Below, piece by piece: positions 9,486 through 11,872 of a stretch of 64,000 bases of DNA. The DNA comes from an uncultured Aequorivita sp. Lineage in GTDB: Bacteria; Bacteroidota; Bacteroidia; Flavobacteriales; Flavobacteriaceae. A model generated the notes under the pieces. It was not told where the DNA came from. It ran no database searches and saw only the letters and a program-made list of their open reading frames with translations. The stretch is from the NCBI GenBank assembly GCA_937125455.1, contig CAKZLK010000016.1, forward strand, positions 62,001 through 126,000, given 5' to 3'. A program made the position numbers and the translations under genes. The first letter of the stretch is position 1; every line of letters begins with the position of its first letter.

Positions 9486-10022
9486 TTATGAATATTCAGC
9501 TTTTTTGCCAACAACACCTTTAAAATAAGTCCAAAGTTTTTCGGTATCTAACTCAATATCACCCGTTGGATAAAATGGTTCGTTTATAGTTATAGTCTTC
9601 TTGCTATAATCGAAAGAAACACAAATAATTGGAACATTGGCTGCCATAGCAATATAATAATAGCCTGTTTTCCAGCTTGTTACTTTTTTTCGAGTTCCTT
9701 CAGGGGCCAATGCCAAACGGAACTCTTTTTTATTTTTAAAAATTTCAGCAATTGCTTCTACCTTGTTTTGACCGGGTGTCCGGTCTAACATTTCGCCTCC
9801 TGTCCATCGGAAATACCAACCAAAAGGCCATCGGAATAATTCTTTTTTAGCTATATAATTAATCTGTGTTTTTGTAAGTCTACGGGTAAATAAACCAAGG
9901 TAGAAATCGTGCCAACTAGTATGTGGGACAACAATTATAATAGCTTTTTTAACTGTTGGATCAAAAGCACCATCAATATGCCAACCCATTATTTTTTCAA
10001 AAATAAATTTTGTTATTCCCAT
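9486..10022 (-). CDS. PlsC-like 1-acylglycerol-3-phosphate acyltransferase family protein
   Basis: A 178-residue acyltransferase. The HX4D catalytic motif is HTSWHD near residue 35, and the phosphate-binding EGTR block is APEGTRKK. It has no long membrane anchor and is shorter than classical PlsC. It follows the KdsB-KdnB fusion by 20 bases and is probably cotranscribed with it, so acylation of an envelope lipid is a reasonable inference. The acceptor is unknown. Confidence 0.8.
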   Translation of the reverse strand: MGITKFIFEKIMGWHIDGAFDPTVKKAIIIVVPHTSWHDFYLGLFTRRLTKTQINYIAKKELFRWPFGWYFRWTGGEMLDRTPGQNKVEAIAEIFKNKKEFRLALAPEGTRKKVTSWKTGYYYIAMAANVPIICVSFDYSKKTITINEPFYPTGDIELDTEKLWTYFKGVVGKKAEYS

Positions 10023-10042: not shown

Positions 10043-11872
10043 CTACATTTTCAGATACAATTGTTTCAGTTTTTCTGGTGTGATTATGGTTTCCCATTCA
10101 CTACCAAGTGCATTTTCCCAAAGTGGAATCATCCCCATTGCAACCGTAATCATTGTATCCATTTGGTCTTCTGAAAGATTTTTGCAAATTCCCTGCGGAA
10201 TTTCAACACCATGTTTTTCAGCCATTTTTTTAAAGATTGCAACATCTTTGGGATAAAATTCTTCCAAATATTGAAATACAATACAGTTTCCTACTCCGTG
10301 CTTGGTTCCCAAAACATACCCAAGTCCGTAGCTCATAGCGTGAGCAACCCCCACTTGAGAATAAGCTATGCTCATACCGCCATGCCAGGAGGCCATCATT
10401 AACTTGGCGCGGGATTCTTGTTTAGTAAGAGAATCTCCCAGAAATATTTCCATACAAAGATCATAGGCCTTTTCGCCATAGCTCTGACTAAATGCATTTA
10501 AAAAAGTTCCATTCAAAGATTCTACGCAATGGATGAAACAATCCATTCCAGTATAAAACCATTGATTTTTTGAAACCCCTTTTGTGAGTTCTGGATCAAG
10601 TATAACCTGGTCAAAAGGTGTGAAGTCACTATTGATGCCCAATTTACGAACAGGACCAGTTAAAACCGTTGTTCGTGAAACTTCTGCACCAGTACCAGAA
10701 ATTGTTGGAATACCAACGTGATAGACCGCTTTCTGTTTAACCAAATCCCATCCCTGATATTCTGCAGCACTACCTTTATTCACTAACATTAATGAAACTG
10801 CTTTTGCTAAATCCATAACCGTTCCGCCACCGATACCTATAATTCCTGAAGGCGTATAGGTAAATTCAGTCTTTATATCATTTACCAAATCGTCAACCTG
10901 TGAAGTTTTTGGCTCTTCTTCAGCAGAGATAAAAATTAGTTTATCATTAAATCGAAGATTTAGTCTATCTGTAAATTCTGTATTTCCTTTAAAAACATCG
11001 TCCACCAAGAATATAAAAGGCGCTTTTTCTTTTTTCTGCAACGAAAGAATAGATGAAAGTTGATCAAAACATCCTTCCCCAAAAACCACTTTTGGCACCA
11101 TTGGGAAGTTTCTAAACTTATTATTAACGGTGTCTGGCTTATTCTGCTTTAATATTTTATTAGCTCTAACCAAATCTTCCGGAGTATCTATTTCTACACC
11201 TGTAGTATTTGAAATGGCCATTTTAATATTTTTACCATATTCCAAGTAACGAATACATTCAATTTTTTCTACAGCTTCCAATGAACGCATTGGCAAACGG
11301 TAGAAGTCCATAATGGCTTGCTTTCTAAAAGCATAAATACCCTTGTGTTTATAATATTGCAGTGCCACGTTTTTATCACGTGGATATGGAATTGGCGAAC
11401 GTGAAAAATAGAGTGCAAAATTATCTTTATCAACTATGACTTTTACGCAATTGGGGTCGCTTATTTCTTTCCAATCGTGGATTTCTGTCATTAGAGAGGC
11501 CAAATCAATTTTGTCAGCATCCGGTTCGTTAAATACAGCCAGAACCTTTTCCAGTCCTTCACGACTCGTAAAAGGTTCGTCTCCCTGAACATTCACAACA
11601 ATATCCACATCCATATTTTCAACAGCCTCAGCAATACGGTCGCTGCCACAATCGTGTTCTTTAATACTCATAATGGCTTTTCCGCCATTCATTTCAATTT
11701 CCTGAAAAATCACCTCGCTATCCGTAACTACATAAACTTCATCAAAAAGATTTGTTGCTTTAGCGGCTTCATAAGTTCTGACTATTACGGGTTTTCCACC
11801 TAAATCCTGCATTAATTTTCCAGGAAATCGAGACGCACCATAGCGTGCGGGAATCATTGCTATTATTTTCAA
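10043..11872 (-). CDS. kdsB: Fusion: Kdo cytidylyltransferase (KdsB) + KdnB-like Kdo 8-oxidase
   Basis: One uninterrupted 609-residue frame holds two enzymes. Residues 1-243 are KdsB ([63 protein letters not shown]), which activates Kdo as CMP-Kdo for lipopolysaccharide core synthesis. After a linker of about 10 residues, residues 254-609 are an iron-type alcohol dehydrogenase: [16 protein letters not shown] binds NAD and the metal ligands are D444, H448, H511 and H525, with the 4- and 14-residue spacing of that family. The N terminus of this half ([15 protein letters not shown]) recalls KdnB, which in Shewanella oxidises Kdo C8 before amination to 8-amino-Kdo. No start codon lies at the junction, so separate translation is unlikely. 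The required aminotransferase KdnA is not in the window. Confidence 0.85.

Follow-up and report, generated by a model that had tools for sequence, protein, structure and literature searches.

Introduction

The founding paper on 8-amino-Kdo (Kdo8N) is said to be Gattis 2013, and Shewanella reportedly has a CMP-Kdo8N synthetase (EC 2.7.7.90). Passages of PMC5125639 that deal with the dehydrogenase KdnB place it in a subfamily of its own, FeADH3, and make it the enzyme that begins Kdo8N synthesis. Kdo8N is described as a feature or hallmark of Shewanella in passages of PMC3210612 and PMC6357163, the first of which also cites the core structure of a flavobacterium, Arenibacter certesii. In the literature that we searched, which excluded Gattis 2013, we found neither a fusion of KdsB with KdnB nor Kdo8N in Bacteroidota.

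The gene fusion described here is real and recurs across genomes; it belongs to this known pathway and comes from a phylum where the searched literature did not show Kdo8N. The gene lies in a stretch of 64,000 nucleotides from an uncultured Aequorivita sp., hereafter the window. We consider, with a probability of roughly 0.75, that the fusion is a bifunctional enzyme of Kdo8N activation that performs steps one and three, with KdnA performing step two. The C-terminal KdnB domain would oxidise the C8 hydroxyl of Kdo to an aldehyde, a separate KdnA aminotransferase would convert the aldehyde to Kdo8N, the N-terminal KdsB domain would couple Kdo8N to CTP, and WaaA would transfer the activated sugar to lipid A. 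Steps one and three would thus reside on a single chain with a flexible linker, to which KdnA would supply step two.

Results

The minus-strand frame runs uninterrupted for 609 codons from a TTG at 11872 to the stop that ends at 10043, and an in-frame TGA stands eight codons upstream of the TTG start (Table 1). The original prediction of KdsB joined in one frame to an iron-type dehydrogenase with four metal ligands was borne out in this protein of 609 aa, in which D444, H448, H511 and H525 are all present. Pfam finds CTP_transf_3 at residues 4-216, Fe-ADH at 261-427 and ADH_Fe_C at 440-552. The proposed extent of KdsB (1-243) was correct, but the dehydrogenase begins at about residue 256, after a linker of about residues 244-255, and not at residue 254. 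There is no stop within the junction. The claim that it also lacks a start codon did not hold, as codon 258 is an in-frame ATG. However, the equivalent Met is internal (N-F/Y-P-M-V) in separate KdnB proteins (for example at loci L044, L052 and L059), so this ATG is not a native KdnB start, and the accompanying claim that these are not two adjacent genes stands.

Table 1. Features of the KdsB-KdnB fusion gene, in window positions.
Feature	Position	Strand	Basis
KdsB-KdnB fusion gene	10043..11872	-	single open frame, 609 aa, TTG start
KdsB domain (proposed CMP-Kdo8N synthetase), residues 1-243	11144..11872	-	TIGR00466, Pfam, Foldseek
Linker, residues 244-255	11108..11143	-	pLDDT <50 at 246-255 and linker-length distribution
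KdnB domain (proposed Kdo 8-dehydrogenase), residues 256-609 and stop	10043..11107	-	PDB comparison, Pfam, Foldseek
E227 of KdsB domain	11192..11194	-	alignment of kdnB-positive with kdnB-negative KdsBs
ATG codon 258	11099..11101	-	internal Met, present in separate KdnBs too
Metal ligand D444	10541..10543	-	104/104 fused and 82/82 separate rows
Metal ligand H448	10529..10531	-	104/104 fused and 82/82 separate rows
Metal ligand H511	10340..10342	-	104/104 fused and 82/82 separate rows
Metal ligand H525	10298..10300	-	104/104 fused and 82/82 separate rows

We searched 249 Flavobacteriaceae genomes with the fusion protein, and 242 of them matched some part of it. Whole-protein matches were found in 26 genomes: 25 are single frames, and the remaining one (G146), which has a stop between its kdsB and kdnB, was removed from the count. 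An additional fused frame, in G202, is interrupted by the end of its contig. A collection of named genomes gave 359 relatives; among the best 80 of these, 78 have fused frames (two of them, L120 and L136, incomplete), while L134 and L137 have adjacent separate genes. The nearest to the window protein among these 80 is from Aequorivita (94%), and named carriers also include Ulvibacter, Altibacter, Cochleicola, Gilvibacter, Marixanthomonas, Patiriisocius, Planktosalinus, Luteirhabdus and Aquimarina. In total we examined the fused frame in 105 loci, some of which are one genome taken twice. The existence of relatives with adjacent separate genes and a short gap might suggest that an error of assembly or sequencing deleted a stop between two genes, an idea to which we give practically no weight and which is refuted by the recurrence of the same fusion in many genomes that were sequenced separately. 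Some family matches with open frames of about 850 aa resembled further KdnB fusions and were rejected, since in the eight that we opened (L044-L051) kdsB and kdnB are distinct genes on either side of a HAD or CAT-like gene; on the basis of these eight genomes no row of this length was counted as a fusion. A search of plasmids for KdnB gave no match at 1e-60.

A first structure model, built from 27 fused sequences, was poor (mean pLDDT 69.2) and was set aside. The second, built from 76 sequences, reached a mean pLDDT of 91.4 with a pTM of 0.59, too low to fix the relative placement of the two domains. Linker residues 246-255 have pLDDT below 50 and are predicted to be disordered, and one linker length is common to 90 of the 104 fused rows. 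A disordered linker of this kind, together with the ATG at codon 258, would fit the idea that the halves act as separate proteins, by internal initiation or by cleavage of the linker, and that the fusion is without consequence. We regard this as quite improbable, given that the equivalent Met lies inside separate KdnBs, that the 105 fused loci are free of a stop between the halves, and that linker length is so constant.

The dehydrogenase half was compared with all solved structures and gave 435.5 bits to 3rf7 and 428.8 bits to 5k8c, while the next Fe-ADH scored 84.2. Foldseek with the second model likewise ranked 3rf7 and 5k8c on top, at 54% identity, with the other listed Fe-ADHs at 17-23%. 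The prediction that this half groups with KdnB and not with general alcohol dehydrogenases is therefore confirmed by both comparisons. The half has the GGG loop (residues 348-350), and its four conserved residues are, as we assume from knowledge of the family, the ligands of the metal. Judging from sequence, it is of the KdnB class and distant from general Fe-ADHs, and its substrate is probably Kdo. As Kdo is assigned by homology, and as NCBIfam models of other Fe-ADHs do match this half, albeit below their cut-offs, one could think of a general alcohol dehydrogenase or of another substrate. This is very improbable in view of KdnB scores about five times those of any other Fe-ADH, of the co-occurrence with kdnA described below and of the presence of kdsB in the gene neighbourhood.

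The genome of the window encodes the KdnA homologue that the original prediction called for (L007), with 494.7 bits to the solved KdnA, 5k8b, and 189.4 to the next entry; it was picked by eye from ten PF01041 matches, five of them strong, and was the only one compared with the PDB. Its gene lies on a different contig from the fusion. The same genome has one WaaA-type transferase and one KdsA above the cut-off, and a search for a second KdsB with the kdsB model matched only the fusion. At G000:C17:253829-255700 (L315, L003) the WaaA gene adjoins, on the opposite strand, the gene of a DegT-type aminotransferase that matches PF01041 strongly (383.8 bits) and is not KdnA.

Among the 249 family genomes, kdnA is present in 165 and kdnB in 167; 162 have both, 79 have neither, three have kdnA only and five have kdnB only (Fisher p 1.3e-54, uncorrected for relatedness). 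One of the three with kdnA only, G232, carries kdnB in two pieces, and the other two genomes are 82 and 88% complete. Four of the five with kdnB only are 75-84% complete, and the fifth, G245, 99% complete, gave no kdnA match at 1e-40. All 26 fused genomes (the 25 complete fusions and G202) have kdnA. Across the phylum, KdnB was found at 1e-120 in 21 of 395 genomes, ten of them outside Flavobacteriaceae, and these ten all have kdnA.

Where the two genes are separate, kdsB precedes kdnB in the same orientation in 74 of 74 loci, a set that includes genomes taken twice and the pair of G154. Eleven of these loci, from 10 genomes, have a gap of -11 to +18 bases between the two genes; in the other 63 the gap is at least 666 bases. 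In many relatives this longer gap is occupied by a HAD-family hydrolase, by a CAT-like acetyltransferase or by the two together (for example L053 3908-5238 (-)), names that come from Pfam searches of L053 and L059. A PF01553 acyltransferase of 178 aa lies directly 3' of the fusion (window 9486-10022 (-)), and similar short proteins are found 3' of kdnB in many relatives. The row kdnA-kdsB-kdnB occurs in three genomes outside the family (G555, G435 and G623) and in one inside it (G146).

Trees were built from 93 of 168 rows and from 47 rows, after near-copies had been dropped and the separate genes thinned. In the tree of 47 rows the fused proteins fall together with three separate pairs of adjacent genes (support 98/96), beside a group in which most members have a gene between kdsB and kdnB. 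The best trees require three changes, and a single fused clade is not rejected in the set of 47 rows (p-AU 0.395). The linker has about 20 residues in the Aquimarina group and 10 in the others. The sequences would fit a single fusion that was split again twice, or as many as three fusions; separate fusions are possible because of the three changes and the longer Aquimarina linker. The fusion would have arisen by loss of the stop between directly adjacent kdsB and kdnB in a cluster of the kdnA-kdsB-kdnB type.

Against the NCBIfam kdsB equivalog TIGR00466 the N-terminal half scores 199.2 bits, above the cut-off of 155.2, and Foldseek matches it to solved CMP-Kdo synthetases (1h6j, 3k8d, 2y6p and others). 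We aligned 148 distinct family KdsBs from kdnB-positive loci (89 fused, 59 separate) with 29 from kdnB-negative genomes, whose loci were obtained from 30 of 40 genomes, G154 (L192, Gly) being excluded before the count of 29. At residue 227 all 148 of the former have Glu; the latter have Gly in 26 and Glu in three. The runner-up column shows more than double the overlap between the two groups. A second set comprised 57 loci from the phylum; here Glu occupies this position in 11 of 11 kdnB-positive KdsBs, ten of them from outside the family, and in one of 46 kdnB-negative ones, the rest having Gly (30), Ala (10), Ser (3), Asn (1) and Pro (1). The kdnB-negative status in this set rests on the 1e-120 cut or on the family search, with G400 alone rechecked at 1e-8.

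The four kdnB-negative genomes with E227, in which neither kdnA nor KdnB was found, are G021 (L188), G117 (L187), G196 (L190) and G400 (L279); a recheck for KdnB gave no match in G117, G021, G161, G041 and G077 and only a 26% match in G196. Glu at this position is therefore no proof of Kdo8N, and the four sequences may reflect past loss of the pathway or another 8-modified Kdo. In a tree built without column 227, the E227 and kdnB traits change 15 times each. For a test that controlled for relatedness we removed eight near-copy KdsBs from a single genus and kept every third row of the fused and of the separate genes. Three contrasts fell on branches with strong support; an average of 2.8 agreed with the expected direction and none went against it, and the test was not significant (p 0.25).

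One genome appears to have caught the pathway in decay. G154 encodes a KdnB-like protein with 45% identity (L301 1498-2577 (-) / L192), flanked by a HAD gene on one side and an acyltransferase on the other, that has lost two of the four ligands although KdnB is still its nearest relative (317 bits). No kdnA was found there at 1e-40. The gene order is kept, and the KdsB beside the KdnB-like gene has Gly at 227. By its sequences this genome is a natural experiment for our reading of E227.

The S. oneidensis enzyme may also have a Glu before D-T-P, a point that we do not use as evidence. In the fusion, residue 227 stands two positions N-terminal to the Asp of a D-T-P-E-D motif, which by its position should be the equivalent of D219 of the Aquifex enzyme, described as binding metal in a passage of PMC3149649. 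An acid at 227 could bind an 8-ammonium group. Residue 177 (window 11342-11344 (-)) was considered as a second mark of the pathway and rejected: it is Lys in 145 of 148 kdnB-positive KdsBs of the family and Ile in all ten kdnB-positive KdsBs from outside it, and is thus a family trait.

These data also bear on whether the KdsB half might activate ordinary Kdo at least as well as Kdo8N, in which case the LPS would contain Kdo or a mixture and E227 would be no switch. The four genomes with E227 but neither gene, the p value of the controlled test and the single copy of KdsB in the genome of the window, for which a broad enzyme would be safe, all agree with this. We nevertheless find it unlikely, because Glu accompanies kdnB without exception (148/148 and 11/11) and is rare elsewhere (3/29 and 1/46), and because G154, whose KdnB-like protein lacks two ligands, has Gly. 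In our main reading the KdsB half would prefer Kdo8N, and E227 may contribute to the preference.

Discussion

Taken together, the two domains with what appear to be intact catalytic residues, the lack of a match to any second KdsB, the presence of KdnA, KdsA and WaaA, the relatives with adjacent genes and the recurrence of the fused frame argue for a bifunctional enzyme of Kdo8N activation. The suggestion that the single chain channels its intermediate has to be abandoned in its direct form: KdnA acts between the two activities and is encoded on another contig, so direct transfer between the fused halves is impossible without it. A disordered linker and a pTM of 0.59 would allow a channel that includes KdnA, and do not show one. 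The benefit of the fusion may be equal dosage, which is the simpler, or the bringing of KdnA between the halves.

We tentatively propose, at somewhat less than even odds, a wider reading in which E227, two positions before a catalytic Asp, reads the C8 amino group, makes the enzyme a CMP-Kdo8N synthetase and marks Kdo8N-type LPS in those Bacteroidota that possess both kdnA and kdnB (some two thirds of the Flavobacteriaceae sampled). In the same reading the fused enzyme of the Aequorivita and Aquimarina lineages could keep KdnA between its two halves, and a reactive aldehyde and its amine product would pass through a three-enzyme complex. Kdo8N in Bacteroidota is a prediction from sequence, and it extends to 162 of the 249 sampled Flavobacteriaceae genomes and to some other Bacteroidota. 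If true, it would change the inner-core charge assumed for many marine bacteria and would explain why kdsB adjoins an Fe-type alcohol dehydrogenase in these genomes. The replacement of OH by NH2 at C8 would shift the mass of the core by about 1 Da, and PMC6357163 reports the C8 signal of Kdo8N near 44-45 ppm.

KdnB of Shewanella oneidensis (5k8c; Q8EEB0, FeADH3/cd08184 in the relevant passages of PMC5125639) is a separate protein, as is the KdnB Sden_2133 (3rf7), whereas here KdnB is the C-terminal domain of a fusion with KdsB. The Shewanella KdnB structures and the fusion half have 54% identity, a TM-score of 0.95 by target length and the same ligands. KdnA, the Kdo8N transaminase (5k8b), is a pathway partner with a homologue here that stays outside the fusion, on another contig. 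Solved CMP-Kdo synthetases (1h6j, 3k8d, 2y6p and others) have their whole fold in common with the N-terminal half at 32-39% identity, but they are unfused and have Gly at 227 (five PDB sequences, with the E. coli enzyme aligned), in contrast to the Glu of a domain joined to KdnB. The CMP-Kdo8N synthetase of Shewanella (EC 2.7.7.90), whose substrate and pathway are those that we propose for the KdsB half, is a separate protein.
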